From: Phycisphaerales bacterium | Lineage (GTDB): Bacteria > Planctomycetota > Phycisphaerae > Sedimentisphaerales > Anaerobacaceae | Assembly (NCBI GenBank): GCA_020343675.1 | Contig: CP070806.1 | Coordinates: 47,734-86,373, forward strand | Length of the DNA: 38,640 nt | Reading direction: 5' to 3' | In this document: positions 29,669 to 38,640 of the stretch, one piece after another | Position numbering within the stretch: the stretch's first letter is position 1 | Layout of the letters: each line of letters starts with the position of its first letter | The notes under the pieces: model-generated | Databases searched by the model: none | The model's input: the letters and a program-made list of their open reading frames with translations, nothing else | Told to the model about the DNA's origin: nothing | Position numbers and translations under genes: made by a program

Positions 29669-30247
29669 CTAATAGATGATGGCTATCGCCTCTTCAATTC
29701 TCTTGATGACCTCCGTCGGTTCGGCCGAGTACGGCACATAGCCGTCGAAGCCCTTGCTGAGCAGGGCCGCCGCTTCGGAATCGCTCAGATCGTTTATCAG
29801 CGCGATGATCTTGATCGTTCGCAGGTCCTCGTTGTCTCGAATGCCTTTGCAGACACCCATCGCATCGATGCCGTTGGCTAAGAAGCTGACCAGCAAGACG
29901 TGCGGGGTGAATGTCCGAACGATTGTGCCGGTCTCAAAGCTGCTCTGGGCGGTTTGCACTTCGTAGTCCGCCTTGCCTTTGAGGACGCCGGCCAGGGCCG
30001 AGGCGGTTTGCTCGTTGCTGTCGGCAATGAGCACACGGATTTTGCCGACCGCCAGCTCGGCCGTCGGCATGTTGTGCACCTTCATAAAACGAATCAGCTC
30101 GCTGAGCGGTATGCGCCGGTCTTTGCTGCCTGGAATGCGGTAGCCTTTGAGCTGGCCGTTGTCAAACCACTTCGATACGGTTCGCGGAGCCACGTGACAA
30201 ATCCGAGCCACGTCGCCCGTCGTCAGTACGTTCTTGCCTTTAGCCAT
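29669..30247 (-). CDS. HTH protein with degenerate receiver domain
   Basis: A 192-residue regulator. The N-terminal domain (about residues 6-58) is an excisionase/BldC-like helix-turn-helix: LTTGDVARICHVAPRTVSKWFDNGQLKGYRIPGSKDRRI, split over residues 8-46. The C-terminal domain (about 68-190) looks like a CheY receiver, but its phospho-acceptor Asp is replaced by S121 (HVLLVSFLANG) and the conserved Lys is missing (GYVPYSAEP). D76 of the acidic pocket remains. It therefore cannot be switched by normal phosphorylation and may respond to a ligand or partner. It probably represses or activates nearby genes. GGAA lies before the ATG. Confidence 0.8.
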   Translation of the reverse strand: MAKGKNVLTTGDVARICHVAPRTVSKWFDNGQLKGYRIPGSKDRRIPLSELIRFMKVHNMPTAELAVGKIRVLIADSNEQTASALAGVLKGKADYEVQTAQSSFETGTIVRTFTPHVLLVSFLANGIDAMGVCKGIRDNEDLRTIKIIALINDLSDSEAAALLSKGFDGYVPYSAEPTEVIKRIEEAIAIIY

Positions 30248-32084: not shown

Positions 32085-34016
32085 TTAACTTGAAGCGTTC
32101 TGCCTGAGCTGCTTGTTGAACGTTCGCAGTTGCCCATCTATCGCGCTGAGCACGTAGTCGATGTAATGCAGTTTGTGAACCGGCTGGCGATGCCCCTCGT
32201 TCATCAGGCCCGTTTGAACCATCGCCACGAACCTGTCTATCGTCTGGCGGCTGATCTCCGTGGGCTCGGCCGCCCATTTTTTCAAGTCTTCATACTGCTC
32301 TCGCAACATCGGATTCTGTCGTAGCTGCTCGGCCGTCAGGTAGTCCGACGGATTGTACGCCAACTGCAACCCCTTCAAACACATAATCAGCGGCTCATAA
32401 TTCGTTCTCTTATCCAGGCGGATGAATTTGTACTGCTGGACATACGTCGTGGCCTGCGCCGGCGGCTTGTTCGCAATCTCATCCCCGCCCAGATACCACC
32501 GGCGCTTGCTGGTCCGGGCAAAAACAAGCTCTTCGCCGAGCTGGTACTGTTTGATCTCGTCGTATCCCATTCGGGATACCCACAGCCTGCCTGTCTTTTT
32601 CCGCTCCGGGCCGCCGCCGAGCACCAGCAGACATTTGACGAAACCGAGCGGCAGAAGCTTCTGGCTGTCGAGCTGTCTCCTTCGAAGCTGCAATGACAAA
32701 TGCAGACTGTGCGGACGCACGTCATAGAAATTGACAATCTCATGGATCAACTGATTGAGCAGCCACGGGTCGGCGGTAGCCGGCCGGGACAGCTCGCCGG
32801 CGATATTCAACCTTCCCGGCGCCAGCTCCAAAAAACCGCTCCGCCGTCCCTGGTCGGTGGCGCCGGTGTGGTCGTCCACATAACCGCCGAGTTTCCAGGA
32901 CAGAATGTCCAGGTGAAAATCATAAAAGTATTTGAACCCGTCATAGACCGGGTCGGTTGTCTTCTGAAGGCTTCTTTGCGGCTCTACGGCGGCCGCGCCG
33001 AGGTTGCTCAATTCCATCTCAATGCCGAGTGGGACCAGTCCGGCTTGGAGATTCGAACGGATGTGAGCCAGATTGGATTCAACCACCCGAGCATCGAACA
33101 TGCTTTTGGCCGCCCGGACGGCGTACTTCACGTAGTCAATCAGATCGTTCTTTCGATGGGGCATCGTCTGCAGACACTTGCTGACGATCAAATCAACCGT
33201 CTCCGGATTTCTATTGATCATTCGCAGAGCAACAAGCACGCTGGCCGAGCGGTTGAAATATCTTTCCGACGTGCGCAGGCGCTCGATTTCAAACCGGTGC
33301 TGGGACTGGATATGCTCATCGAGCTGGTTGAACAGTACCTGCCTGACGACCATGGTGAGATAATTCCTGATAAAGGGCTCGGCCTCGTGGTCGTCGTACA
33401 GGTGTTTGATGCTCGGCCGGGGGCGGTCCAACTCATGTTCGAGATAGTAATCGCTCACGGCATCCGTACGATAATGGCTCATCACCAGATCCCGCTCGGT
33501 GGTCGCGAGCAGCTCCCGGTCCGCTCGGCGCTCCGATTCGGCATCGACGGTCCGCTCGCCCGGGCGAATGTGCCGTTTGATGAATTTCTCGATGCGCTTT
33601 CGCAGCCAGAGCTCGTGGATCAGGTTGACGTGAAACCTGTCGCCGAAATGCTGTTTCATCGAGTCGTGAGAAACCAGATAGGCCTGGGCCTCGACGGTGC
33701 CGCGTGCCGTGTTGACCCGGACGGTTTCCCTTTCGTAGCGTTTGCCTTCGTACCTGTCGATCTCGGCCATGGCCCTGGCCGGGACGGCATAGATGACCAA
33801 ACCGTCAATTCGTGAAGACGGCGCCTCGATGGCGTAGTGATAAACGTCGTCCGGGCTAACGCGTCGATGATGCGGAAGCAGCGCCGATTCGGCAAAAAGC
33901 GTCTCACTATCGATTTTGGAGGCCCTTCTGGAGAAACTCAAACCACAGACCGATTGAAGAATCGAGCTGTCTCGCAGCGATCCATAAACGAATAAATTGG
34001 CCTTTCCTTCGCTCAT
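32085..34016 (-). CDS. Gamma-glutamylcyclotransferase-like / amidoligase (GCS)-like fusion protein
   Basis: A 643-residue cytoplasmic protein. Residues about 7-125 match the AIG2/GGCT fold: LFVYGSLRDS at the start and IDRYEGKRYERETVRV, where E90 corresponds to the catalytic glutamate. Residues about 150-325 are helical and unassigned. From about residue 325 there is a region resembling glutamate-cysteine-ligase-type amidoligases: LGIEMEL (E333, E335), GFLELAPGRLN, GELSRP and HSLHLSLQL (H436, H439). Amidoligases and GGCT-like cyclotransferases are known to occur as neighbours that make and break gamma-glutamyl or related amide bonds; here both appear in one chain. Substrates are unknown. AGGA lies close to the ATG. 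It is the last gene of a minus-strand operon, 43 bases after the GT2 gene. Confidence 0.6.
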   Translation of the reverse strand: MSEGKANLFVYGSLRDSSILQSVCGLSFSRRASKIDSETLFAESALLPHHRRVSPDDVYHYAIEAPSSRIDGLVIYAVPARAMAEIDRYEGKRYERETVRVNTARGTVEAQAYLVSHDSMKQHFGDRFHVNLIHELWLRKRIEKFIKRHIRPGERTVDAESERRADRELLATTERDLVMSHYRTDAVSDYYLEHELDRPRPSIKHLYDDHEAEPFIRNYLTMVVRQVLFNQLDEHIQSQHRFEIERLRTSERYFNRSASVLVALRMINRNPETVDLIVSKCLQTMPHRKNDLIDYVKYAVRAAKSMFDARVVESNLAHIRSNLQAGLVPLGIEMELSNLGAAAVEPQRSLQKTTDPVYDGFKYFYDFHLDILSWKLGGYVDDHTGATDQGRRSGFLELAPGRLNIAGELSRPATADPWLLNQLIHEIVNFYDVRPHSLHLSLQLRRRQLDSQKLLPLGFVKCLLVLGGGPERKKTGRLWVSRMGYDEIKQYQLGEELVFARTSKRRWYLGGDEIANKPPAQATTYVQQYKFIRLDKRTNYEPLIMCLKGLQLAYNPSDYLTAEQLRQNPMLREQYEDLKKWAAEPTEISRQTIDRFVAMVQTGLMNEGHRQPVHKLHYIDYVLSAIDGQLRTFNKQLRQNASS

Positions 34017-34059: not shown

Positions 34060-34755
34060 TCAGTTCCCGCTGCGAATTCGATGATGCAGCTCGAATAACT
34101 CCTTGAATGCGCGGGCAATAACCCGAAGGCTTGCACCGGTTTGTACGCCTGCGGTTCGGGGATAGTGGTGCACCCCCTTCTGCGTAATACGGTACCCCTT
34201 CAGGGCGGCCCGGGCCAGGATCTCGGCGTCGATCAGAGCCCCAGTGCTCGAAAGTTCAATCCGGTCGAAAATCCCTCTTCTGTACAACTTGAACGCACAG
34301 TCGATGTCCCGGATGTTCAGGCCGAAAAGCAGGCAAACCAGCTTCGTCCAGGCCCAGCCGTTGATCTTGCGTACGAAGGAATCCCGCCGATTGAGTCGGT
34401 AACCGCTCACAATGTCATAGTGCTCCATCAAGTCCAGTAAAGGCGGCATCTCATTCATATCGAACTGGCCGTCACCGTCCGTGTAGAAAACAAGCTCCTT
34501 CGTTGCCGTTTTGAAACCGGATCGCAGCGCCGCTCCGTACCCGAGGTTACGCTCGTGGTGCACAACTTTGACCCGGCTGTCGCGGCCGGCAATCTCGTCG
34601 GCGATTCGCCCCGTGCCGTCTTTGCTGCCGTCGTCCACGATAATAACCTCGAAATCGGCGTCGAGTTTTCCCAGAACCATCAGCGCGTTTTCTACGGTCC
34701 GGCCAACATTCTCCTGCTCATTGTAACACGGGAAAAAAACGCTGACGGACACCAT
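34060..34755 (-). CDS. GT2 polyprenyl-phosphate sugar synthase (DPM1-like)
   Basis: A 231-residue GT2 enzyme: VSVFFPCYNEQENV, VIIVDDGSKDGTGRIAD, and YTDGDGQFDMNEM with the DxD metal site. These match dolichyl/polyprenyl-phosphate mannose synthases, which transfer a sugar from a nucleotide donor to a lipid phosphate on the cytoplasmic face. Only a short hydrophobic patch is seen near WTKLVCLLFGL, with no C-terminal membrane domain. ATG 34755 overlaps the previous stop as TAATG, and AGAGG lies five bases before it; the in-frame GTG at 34761 is less likely. Its product would feed the GT-C protein encoded just upstream. Confidence 0.9.
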   Translation of the reverse strand: MVSVSVFFPCYNEQENVGRTVENALMVLGKLDADFEVIIVDDGSKDGTGRIADEIAGRDSRVKVVHHERNLGYGAALRSGFKTATKELVFYTDGDGQFDMNEMPPLLDLMEHYDIVSGYRLNRRDSFVRKINGWAWTKLVCLLFGLNIRDIDCAFKLYRRGIFDRIELSSTGALIDAEILARAALKGYRITQKGVHHYPRTAGVQTGASLRVIARAFKELFELHHRIRSGN

Positions 34756-37700
34756 TACCACCTCTTGCTCGCAGACAACCAGGCTGTCTCATCCAAACAT
34801 TCGCTTTCCTTCAGCGCATAACGGCTTGCCACTTCCATATCCCCCCGGGCCCGCGCGGCAGTTTTCAAATGATAGCAGGCCAGCCGCGCCGATTCGAGGT
34901 GAAGGCGATAGCCGTCCTGCTGAGCCCAAAGTTCCTGATTCTGCGTGAATTCCTGAACGTACGCTTCGCAGAACTTGTCAACCTCGGGTTTCAAATCGGG
35001 GTACTTCGCACCGAAGGCCATAGTTTCCAGCATTGGCGTAGGAGATCGTCTCTGTTTGAACGCTTCGAGAGCATGATCAAGCCCCCTCTTCCGGTCAGCC
35101 AATTCCGGCAGAAACAAGAAGTACGTGCGCGCGAGAATCAGATTCCGGTGATAGTCGTCCGGATAACGCGTCTGGCCCGTCAGAATTCCCCCGAAAAGCT
35201 CTTTGCCCCGCTGGGTTCTTATATCGACGAAGAGCTTCTGCCTGCGGCTGAGGAAAACGAGTCTCCAGTTGGGATTATACTCGATCCCTTTAATGGCGTG
35301 ATACATGGCTTTCTGATCCGGATCGGCAAAGACCACGGCCGGCATCAGGACGACCCAGATATTGTAGGCCTGCATTTGTTCGTCCATCCATTGACCGATC
35401 TTGACGTAATCGGAAGCCGTCACCGGCTGCCCGCGGGCTTGAGTGCGCTGGAGGGTCTGGCCAGTGATCTGGCCGCCGGCCATGACGTGTGACCAGAGGT
35501 CGAACGTGCTGCGGTTGTAGGCCGCCTGTGCCCTGCCGTCCATGAACAACTGCAAAGGCGTTCGGCCCGTGTTCGGGTCCGGTTCCTGGCCCCAGGCGAT
35601 AAAGCCGCCCTCGGTCCAGTAGTTGAACATTTTGCCCGACAGCTCGTTATCTTTGATGAACTTCATGGCGTAGAACGGCTTGGCGTCCGAAGCGGTCATT
35701 CGCATGAAGACCGAATTCAGCCTAGCATCGGACGGCCACGCATCGAGATAAACACGCTTAAACTTGACCGCCCACGCCGTGCCTAAGAACAAAACGACCA
35801 CCGCGCCGGCAATCACGCAGAACAGTTGCACACTGTGCGGCATGCGCGAGACCGTCAGACGACCCCGGGTATGGAAGTTCCTCGCCGCGGAAAACGCCTG
35901 AATGGTCTGCTCGGTCAGCATCGCCACAATCGGGCAGGCGGCGATGGCCGCGATTGGAATGAAACGGCGGGACCGGACCGCCATATAAATCGTCAGGGCC
36001 GCAACCGCCATGATCCCCAAGTCAATCCTGGGCAGTCGATAGGTGTCATCCGCCGGCGGCCCTTCAGGCTCCATGACCGCCTGGTTGATTGCGCTTCTCA
36101 AGAAGGGAATCCCCAGCCAGACGACGATGGCAAGGATATTGACCACGTAAAGACCGTCGAACAGGTGGGCGTAAGTCACTTCGAGGTTGCGTTCGTAGAC
36201 CGGACGTGACAAACGCTGCAGGTCCAAAAATTGCTGCACGTGCCAAATCGATTTGTCAAACTTGAATGGATCGAAGATCAAAACCATCAGGACCAGCGAA
36301 GCGACCGCCGCGGCGGCGACAAAACCGATGTTCCGGGTCTCGCGCTTTACCGTTTTCGAGATAAGCGAAGCCAGAATGTGCAGGAGAACATACGCGGGCA
36401 CGAGAACAAAAGGATAGAAATACCTGCTGTCATAACCAGCCAGAGGGTCCCCCGACCAAACGGCCAGCAGAATAAGCGGGACGACCAGGTAAATGAAATG
36501 AATGCTCTTATAGACGCTCAGCATGAGGACCATCGCAAAGAGCGCGCAGATAAAAAAGCTTCCCGCATCAAGTGCGAGAAACGAAAAACTGACAAACGTC
36601 ACCCAAAAAACGAATACGCACAGGGCCGCGCCGAAGATTCTCGATAAGAACCCGAAAAGCTTTCTCTGCGCCTCAAGCTCGTTGGTCGGTGCTTTGAGGA
36701 ACCTTGGCACCAGGAATCGGGCGAATACCCAAAGCACAACCAGACCAATGCTCAGGATGTACAGCACCAGAAATGGGAAGCCTGTGCCGACCCGGTTGGT
36801 CCAATCGAAGGCGGATTGCCATTCGTGAATGTCACGCCAGCGTTCGGCGTGTTTGCTGACGCTGACGACGAACGTATGCGTCAGATTCGTCAGGTGAAAC
36901 GGGTTTAGCGCAATCACGGCCAGAAGCGTGACCGCGCCCGCGGCGACGGTGTGACAGACGCCTCGCAGCCCGATCGAGCGAAACCTCTTTTTCGAGAAGC
37001 TGGTCAGCAGATGAAGTCCGACGAAGGGAACGAGCGTGATGAAGACGTAGATGTACCCGCCGTGCACGTTGCACCAGAAGACCGTCACCGGGACGATCAG
37101 CCAGACATAGAGGATGTTTCGGTAGCTCGCGAGGACAAGAACGAGCAGAAAGACGGCAACCAGCAGGTTCGAGAAACCCGCCGGCCGGATGTCGATATAC
37201 GACCGTCCTGCAAAAAGGGCAAAGCACGAGACCACCGCGCACAGCACCGGGTTGACTCCGAGAAGCCGCCCCGTGTAATAAACGCAGAGGATGGCCAGGA
37301 TGTAAACGGTGAACTTCCAATAGACCAGGGCGTTGGATGAGAAGCTCAGGCCGTCCGCGTAAGAGGACTCGGGAACCAGCGAGTAGAAGATTACGTGGGT
37401 CAGCCAGTTCTGGTTGATCCAGCCGGTGGGATGGCAGGCTTTGACCGCATCAAGGCCGACGGTCTCGGCAATCCACCGGGCCCAGCCGGGCCATGTCGCG
37501 ATCTCCTCGGGCGTCGGGCCCGGCTTGTGCGAATTCGCACTGAACGGCTCGACGGTATCGACCCCGTGATGGACAAAATGCCGCCCGCACGCCATCGCCA
37601 CCCACGTATCGCCGGCGGCGACCATGTGGGTGCAGGCATGAAACGTGAAAATCAGCATGGCGGCCCAGCCGATAATCATGGGCCAGCCGGCTAAGGCGCG

Positions 37701-37799
37701 GGGTCCGGCGGTTGCTGCTGCTTCTTCAGAGACGGATGAATCGCCCGTCTGCGGCGCGGGCGACGCTTTTTGCTTCCTTCTCTTTACTGATTTAGCCAT
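34755..37799 (-). CDS. Large GT-C-type membrane protein with soluble C-terminus
   Basis: A 1014-residue inner-membrane protein. After a basic 40-residue tail there are about a dozen hydrophobic helices. The first periplasmic loop carries AAGDTWVAMACGRHFV and DTVEPFSANSH, and then NQNWLTHVIFYSL, the acidic and aromatic pattern of GT-C glycosyltransferases of planctomycete type. Residues about 690-1000 form a soluble region (KPFYAMKFIKDNELSGKMFNYWTEGG and others) of likely periplasmic or helical-repeat nature. It presumably transfers sugars from the lipid donor made by the downstream GT2. Its start overlaps the upstream aminotransferase gene by 16 bases, and its stop overlaps the GT2 start, showing tight coupling. 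Confidence 0.82.
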   Translation of the reverse strand: MAKSVKRRKQKASPAPQTGDSSVSEEAAATAGPRALAGWPMIIGWAAMLIFTFHACTHMVAAGDTWVAMACGRHFVHHGVDTVEPFSANSHKPGPTPEEIATWPGWARWIAETVGLDAVKACHPTGWINQNWLTHVIFYSLVPESSYADGLSFSSNALVYWKFTVYILAILCVYYTGRLLGVNPVLCAVVSCFALFAGRSYIDIRPAGFSNLLVAVFLLVLVLASYRNILYVWLIVPVTVFWCNVHGGYIYVFITLVPFVGLHLLTSFSKKRFRSIGLRGVCHTVAAGAVTLLAVIALNPFHLTNLTHTFVVSVSKHAERWRDIHEWQSAFDWTNRVGTGFPFLVLYILSIGLVVLWVFARFLVPRFLKAPTNELEAQRKLFGFLSRIFGAALCVFVFWVTFVSFSFLALDAGSFFICALFAMVLMLSVYKSIHFIYLVVPLILLAVWSGDPLAGYDSRYFYPFVLVPAYVLLHILASLISKTVKRETRNIGFVAAAAVASLVLMVLIFDPFKFDKSIWHVQQFLDLQRLSRPVYERNLEVTYAHLFDGLYVVNILAIVVWLGIPFLRSAINQAVMEPEGPPADDTYRLPRIDLGIMAVAALTIYMAVRSRRFIPIAAIAACPIVAMLTEQTIQAFSAARNFHTRGRLTVSRMPHSVQLFCVIAGAVVVLFLGTAWAVKFKRVYLDAWPSDARLNSVFMRMTASDAKPFYAMKFIKDNELSGKMFNYWTEGGFIAWGQEPDPNTGRTPLQLFMDGRAQAAYNRSTFDLWSHVMAGGQITGQTLQRTQARGQPVTASDYVKIGQWMDEQMQAYNIWVVLMPAVVFADPDQKAMYHAIKGIEYNPNWRLVFLSRRQKLFVDIRTQRGKELFGGILTGQTRYPDDYHRNLILARTYFLFLPELADRKRGLDHALEAFKQRRSPTPMLETMAFGAKYPDLKPEVDKFCEAYVQEFTQNQELWAQQDGYRLHLESARLACYHLKTAARARGDMEVASRYALKESECLDETAWLSASKRW

Positions 37800-38640
37800 T
37801 CTTGAAGTCTGTCTAATCCCTTGGTAATCTGTTCGAGCGAACAGGCAAAACTCAGGCGCACATTGTTGTCGCAGCCAAAGGGCAGGCCCGGAACCACCGC
37901 GACGTTGGCCTGCTCCAGAAGGGCTTTTGCGAAATCCATGCTGCCCTTTATTTTCGCCCCGTTTATATTTCGGCCATAATGGCTCGAAACATCAGGGAAA
38001 CAGTAAAACGCGCCGGTCGGCTCGGAACACAAGATCCCTTCCATGGCGTTCAGCCGTTTGGCCATATATTGCCCTCGACGCTCGAATTCCTTTCTCATGC
38101 CTTCGATGGTCTCGGCCGCCGGCTCGCCCAACGCGGCGATGGCCGCGTACTGCCCGAACGTGACCGCGTTCGAGGTCATGTGCGATTGCAGGCGACCCAT
38201 CGCCTTGATCACTTCCAGCGGACCGGCGGTATAGCCGAGACGCCAGCCGGTCATGGAAAACGTCTTACTAAAGCCGTTCAGCGTCAGAGTCCGGTTATAG
38301 GCATCGTCGCTCAGCGCGGCGAAACTCACAAACTCAGTGTCGCCATAGATGAGCTTTTCGTAGATTTCATCCGACAAAACACAGACGTTCGTCCCTTCGA
38401 GCACTTCGGCCAGGGCCTTGAGCTCGCGGGGCGTGTAGGTGAATCCGCCGGGGTTGTTGGGTGAGTTGAGCACGAGCATCGCGGTTTTCTCCGTGATGGC
38501 CTGGCGCAACTGCGACGGGGTGACCTTGTAGCCAGTACTGGCCTGGGTTTCAACGATTTTGGCCTTTGCGCCGGCCAGCTTGACGGTCTCGGGGTACGTC
38601 ACCCAGTAAGGCGTGGGCAGAATGACCTCGTCGCCCGGGT
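37784..38640 (-). CDS. Class I aminotransferase (aspartate-type), N-terminus outside window
   Basis: A partial gene, C-terminal 285 residues visible, running off the window end at 38640 in an open frame (..GDEVILPTPYWVTYPETV). The motifs are LVLNSPNNPGGFTY, CVLSDEIYEKL and LNGFSKTFSMTGWRLGYTAGP with the PLP lysine in SKT. These support aspartate aminotransferase (subgroup I-gamma), probably an aspartate/2-oxoglutarate or prephenate-type enzyme. An apparent internal start at 38602 is a GTG within conserved sequence, so the real start lies outside. Its end overlaps the large GT-C gene by 16 bases, so it heads the visible part of the operon. Confidence 0.9.
   Translation of the reverse strand, partial: PGDEVILPTPYWVTYPETVKLAGAKAKIVETQASTGYKVTPSQLRQAITEKTAMLVLNSPNNPGGFTYTPRELKALAEVLEGTNVCVLSDEIYEKLIYGDTEFVSFAALSDDAYNRTLTLNGFSKTFSMTGWRLGYTAGPLEVIKAMGRLQSHMTSNAVTFGQYAAIAALGEPAAETIEGMRKEFERRGQYMAKRLNAMEGILCSEPTGAFYCFPDVSSHYGRNINGAKIKGSMDFAKALLEQANVAVVPGLPFGCDNNVRLSFACSLEQITKGLDRLQEWLNQ

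Follow-up and report, generated by a model that had tools for sequence, protein, structure and literature searches.

A cyclotransferase domain joined to a divergent ligase-like domain of predicted GS fold in a single protein of Sedimentisphaerales

Can a domain that makes γ-glutamyl amides and a domain that breaks them reside in a single polypeptide? This question is raised by an open reading frame in the DNA of a Phycisphaerales bacterium (GCA_020343675.1, contig CP070806.1, positions 47,734 to 86,373); the whole stretch analysed, 38,640 nt in length, is called the window below. The reading frame (32085..34016, minus strand) begins with ATG and encodes 643 amino acids. A preliminary description of this DNA had proposed that a GGCT/AIG2 domain and an amidoligase-like domain are joined in this chain, citing motifs that are all found at the residues it gave: VYGSLR (10–15), IDRYEG (86–91, with E90), GIEMEL (331–336), GELSRP (407–412), and HSLHLSL (436–442). 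A search of 40 related genomes turned up homologues with 55–79% identity and no internal stops in 27, as near full-length proteins except in two genomes that hold contig-split pieces only, and 80 loci were fetched in a wider scan. These homologues confirm that the reading frame is a genuine gene, and the motif and domain observation holds.

The N-terminal part securely adopts the AIG2/GGCT fold. Pfam GGACT (PF06094) matches residues 8–117 (33666..33995, minus strand) with an E-value of 5.3e-14 and 53.2 bits, against a curated cut-off of 22.8, and the N-terminal profile matches the plant AIG2-like structures 2jqv (E 3.3e-6) and 2g0q. A Foldseek search with the full-length model returned 2g0q (E 2.6e-5), 2jqv, human GGCT (3cry), and GGACT, all with a probability of 1.00, as well as urea amidolyase, in which a GGCT-fold domain occurs in another setting. 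In an alignment of 61 homologues, Y11, G12, S13, and E90 are invariant, and L14 is present in 60. Residues 11–14 (YGSL) make up the substrate loop, and E90, a catalytic-type Glu, aligns with the Glu of 2jqv and 2g0q. The fold, YGSL, and a DxxEGxxYxR motif containing the catalytic-type Glu are common to this protein and the known AIG2/GGACT cyclotransferases (PF06094; 2jqv, 2g0q, 3cry, 3jub); the latter are mostly single-domain, whereas the fusion protein carries about 520 further residues. Enzymes of the GGCT/GGACT family free the amine from γ-glutamyl amides with formation of 5-oxoproline, and we infer that the N-terminal domain has cyclotransferase activity.

The further residues were examined in an AlphaFold2 model of the full-length protein (pLDDT 84, pTM 0.79), for which the 61-sequence alignment served as input. 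The cyclotransferase domain is followed by an all-helical middle domain (residues 134–322; 33051..33617, minus strand) with conserved ELWLRKRI and TTERDL motifs, for which a profile search found no PDB sequence match; as the preliminary description suggested, it may serve in target binding. Next come a predicted GS-fold carboxylate-amine ligase-like core (residues 326–560; 32337..33041, minus strand) and four C-terminal helices (562–567, 569–583, 590–605, and 616–642, within residues 561–643; 32088..32336, minus strand). No Pfam or NCBIfam model covers the protein outside residues 8–117, and the C-terminal domain matches no sequence family in either library; Pfam matches to Thoc2 and SpoVR were put down to chance and rejected as spurious.

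Fold comparison places the C-terminal domain among the GS-fold carboxylate-amine ligases, as a probable and very divergent relative. Apart from cyclotransferase-fold structures, the PDB matches listed at a probability of at least 0.5 were Dop (0.80), PafA (0.60 and 0.54), and glutamine synthetase (0.57) for the full-length model, and GshAB (0.97 and 0.69) and PafA (0.93 and 0.54) for a separate model of residues 318–643. All the non-cyclotransferase matches listed at this level in the two runs are thus members of the GS-fold ligase superfamily, an agreement that would be hard to explain by chance. The C-terminal E-values are modest (4e-3 to 0.3) and count against the ligase reading; in a viral fold library, a phage amidoligase ranked second for the C-terminal model at a low probability of 0.28. 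The C-terminal region therefore does match the GS/GCS-type fold that the preliminary description had expected at the level of predicted structure, and the searches found no conserved family already assigned to another activity.

Sequence-profile comparisons gave a fainter signal. Alignment of the C-terminal domain by hhalign with amidoligase, Pup ligase, and GCS2 alignments was not significant by the program's own probability, and in most pairings the scores were no better than those of unrelated controls. Modest support came from Amidoligase_2 alignments, against which the profile score exceeded 395 of 400 and 397 of 400 block shuffles (about 1 in 100); the alignment falls on the GhExE strand, setting GIEME against GVEVE. 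None of the 61 members matched Amidoligase_2 (PF12224) above the Pfam cut-off, so Pfam does not place the protein in Amidoligase_2 in the narrow sense, and none matched the PafA/Dop family (PF03136, Pup_ligase) above the cut-off. The source genome as a whole gave no match to GCS2, Pup_ligase, or PF12224.

The conserved residues were compared with published features of the superfamily, strands being assigned to the core from AlphaFold2 secondary structure and their order. Carboxylate-amine/ammonia ligases share a six-stranded core, in which strand 1 carries Ex[EH] (GhExE), strands 2 and 3 carry acids, and strand 4 carries [HD]x[NH] or [HQ]x[NH] (PMC2588565). Strand 5 carries an Arg, with another in the preceding loop, and strand 6 carries Ex[RK]x2D or [QH]x4D; helices follow strands 3 and 6, and PafA and other members add four C-terminal helices (PMC2588565). 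In the fusion protein, strand 330–336 bears G331-I-E333-M-E335, a GhExE motif in which G331, E333, and E335 are found in all 61 sequences. D381 (strand 379–382), E397 (strand 394–398), R482 (in the loop before strand 5), and R505 (strand 500–506) are likewise invariant. Helix 417–430 follows strand 3 and helix 541–553 follows strand 6, with four more helices after it. The GCS-type arrangement of motifs is thereby largely borne out, with two adjustments: the third acid had been sought in GELSRP, but E408 is retained in only 59 of 61 sequences and the invariant E397, on a predicted strand, fits better; and both histidines that had been singled out, H436 and H439 on strand 435–443, are invariant, with H439 by position the likelier catalytic residue.

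Two strands depart from the consensus. The strand 4 motif is HxS, with H439 invariant and position 441 Ser in 58 sequences and Thr in three, so that it agrees with [HD]x[NH] at the first position only. Strand 6 (523–533) reads QxKxxR, with Q528, K530, and R533 invariant; the Gln and Lys fit the consensus, and the final Asp is replaced by Arg. Because of these two changes, the chemistry may be altered. The presumed catalytic half on the C-terminal side is the most conserved part of the protein, with 20% invariant columns versus 14% in the N-terminal core and 13% in the middle domain. Compared with GS-fold ligases (GCS2, GshAB, PafA/Dop, and Amidoligase_2), the protein shares the predicted fold, GhExE, the acids of strands 2 and 3, the strand 4 His, the two arginines, and the order of helices, but differs in HxS, QxKxxR, the lack of a family-level sequence match, and the added N-terminal cyclotransferase and helical domains.

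The fusion is kept across much of Sedimentisphaerales and, in the genome surveys, is confined to that order. Convincing matches in surveys of 294 and 392 genomes of the phylum were all fused and all within Sedimentisphaerales, with no stand-alone C-terminal domain among the 392. Among 84,980 species genomes, scanned with patterns that cover the beginning of the middle domain, 111 relatives turned up, and the 80 loci that were kept all encode an essentially full-length fusion; a stand-alone C-terminal domain outside the phylum could escape such a scan. The two parts were together in every case in these 80 loci and in the phylum survey, which answers the call of the preliminary description for a check on their co-occurrence. 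The titles of the 80 loci name Phycisphaerae/Sedimentisphaerales or plain Planctomycetota metagenome-assembled genomes (MAGs), apart from one titled Candidatus Kuenenia stuttgartiensis, which carries the operon and is probably mislabelled or mixed. Weak extra survey matches were short (E 0.004–0.5), and the one inspected looks like chance. A phage or plasmid origin was rejected, as phages, plasmids, and viral contigs gave no match to the fusion protein, and a role as a defence system was rejected for want of a PADLOC match.

Separate genes for the two activities have been found side by side, as the preliminary description had stated. In firmicutes, an AIG2 cyclotransferase gene lies beside a GS-fold ligase of this kind (PMC2588565); amidoligase or ligase genes occur near cyclotransferase genes in both firmicutes and phages (PMC2588565, PMC3890496, PMC10945688), and the neighbours have been proposed to share one pathway. 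The CJD_1902-like GCS2-sized ligase family (PMC2588565) and the phage amidoligase and GGCT genes thus link the same two activities by neighbourhood. These pairs are separate genes, whereas here the two are one chain, with a ligase sequence not recognisably of the CJD_1902-like family. Opposed synthesis and cleavage in a single chain have a precedent in trypanothione synthetase-amidase, which, like glutathionylspermidine synthetase/amidase, combines amide-making and amide-breaking domains as the fusion protein appears to do. Both enzymes consist of an ATP-grasp ligase and a CHAP amidase, folds unrelated to those found here. No earlier report of a GGCT–ligase fusion was found in the part of the literature and sequence databases that was covered. 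A pair of functions already known from elsewhere appears here in a single polypeptide, whose ligase-like part has diverged strongly. That one order has kept the two domains fused is direct evidence of a connection between their functions and provides a single cloneable protein for testing them. It also adds a ligase branch recognised by none of the sequence libraries used, and concerns one of the numerous conserved planctomycete proteins that lack an assignment.

How might the two domains work together? The superfamily usually uses ATP to activate the γ-carboxylate of glutamate, to which an amine is then coupled (PMC2588565). By analogy, the C-terminal GS-fold domain would activate a carboxylate with the help of ATP and Mg2+, the γ-carboxylate of glutamate being the likeliest, and couple an amine to it; this amine would afterwards be set free by the N-terminal AIG2/GGCT domain through an intramolecular attack that yields 5-oxoproline, E90 acting as general acid-base. 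A small amine could in this way be protected or carried for a time by the glutamyl group, for which butirosin offers a precedent, or the group could be a reversible tag. We consider the chances about evenly balanced that the protein is a bifunctional enzyme of this type, whose C-terminal domain makes and whose N-terminal domain breaks a γ-glutamyl amide; catalysis by both domains, the use of glutamate, action on the same bond, and an amine as substrate are what we infer. A search of the source genome (assembly about 82% complete) gave no 5-oxoprolinase PxpA, which counts against make-and-release, as does the survival of the other operon genes without the fusion gene in sister families. More tentatively, and less probably than not, the protein may be a single-chain enzyme that writes and erases γ-glutamylation, with a new and order-specific GS-fold ligase branch and a helical substrate domain, acting on an undescribed planctomycete amine metabolite or protein target.

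Three other accounts of the same domains were weighed. The ligase could be active while the GGCT domain takes another substrate or only binds or regulates, without a make-and-break cycle on one bond. GGCT-fold domains do occur elsewhere, as the urea amidolyase match illustrates, and the N-terminal core is no more conserved than the middle domain; the retention of YGS and E90 in all 61 aligned homologues and the adjoining of ligase and cyclotransferase genes elsewhere speak against this arrangement, which we regard as unlikely. It is quite improbable that the protein has two bond-breaking domains, with Dop-like isopeptide hydrolysis at the C-terminus and the cyclotransferase then clearing the leftover γ-glutamyl amide: Dop ranks high in the fold search, strands 4 and 6 deviate from the ligase consensus, and PafA and Dop show that one fold can serve ligase and hydrolase, but the source genome yielded no Pup_ligase-family protein, and neither the ligases' GhExE signature nor the two arginines vary. 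That the C-terminal match is spurious, or the domain degenerate and non-catalytic so that the cyclotransferase works alone, accords with the missing family match, the near-control hhalign scores, and the altered motifs, but is very improbable given the concordance of two fold searches and the strong conservation of the catalytic half, including E333, E335, D381, E397, H439, R482, and R505.

Turning from the bifunctional reading to its setting, the fusion gene stands at the end of a conserved same-strand operon with short gaps or overlaps between genes, which sometimes includes an alanine racemase. In the window, a GT2 family glycosyltransferase (34060..34761, minus strand; PF00535, E 4e-32) lies 43 bp upstream and is overlapped by the gene for a 1014-residue hydrophobic membrane protein (34755..37799, minus strand), which is conserved beside the fusion gene. 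The first gene encodes a class I/II aminotransferase (37784..38640, minus strand; PF00155, E 1.8e-55); its start lies beyond the end of the window, and the reading frame is longer in the genome. GT2 is directly upstream of the fusion gene in 56 of 78 testable loci, and an alanine racemase lies between the two in 15 of the 78. Other families of Sedimentisphaerales lack the fusion gene yet have the aminotransferase, the membrane protein, and GT2, in most cases with an alanine racemase, or only the membrane protein and GT2. Because these families keep the operon without it, the fusion gene seems to have been appended to an older operon, or lost from its end, and its neighbours reveal little about the substrate. 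The operon with GT2 and the membrane protein is real, but the link is loose, as relatives keep these genes without the fusion gene; the cell-envelope or lipid-linked product suggested in the preliminary description is at most a possible target.

The membrane protein gave no Pfam match at the cut-off and no PDB match. It has a conserved GDTWVAxACGRHFxHHGVDTVxPFS motif, occurs in 37 of 41 genomes, and resembles GT-C type glycosyltransferases by impression only. Elsewhere in the window, 29669–30247 (minus strand) encodes a 192-residue protein with an HTH_17 and a receiver-like domain, the receiver match falling just under the Pfam cut-off. Among 119 sampled planctomycete genomes, Pup_ligase-family proteins occur in 16, none of them in Sedimentisphaerales. 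Ala_racemase_C was detected in 3 of 25 genomes of Anaerobacaceae versus 16 of 16 from the other families of the order, some of the assemblies being incomplete; this suggests that alanine racemase, and perhaps D-Ala-based wall synthesis too, was lost in Anaerobacaceae. Outside this family, alr often lies within the operon (locus L112, 8826–9977).
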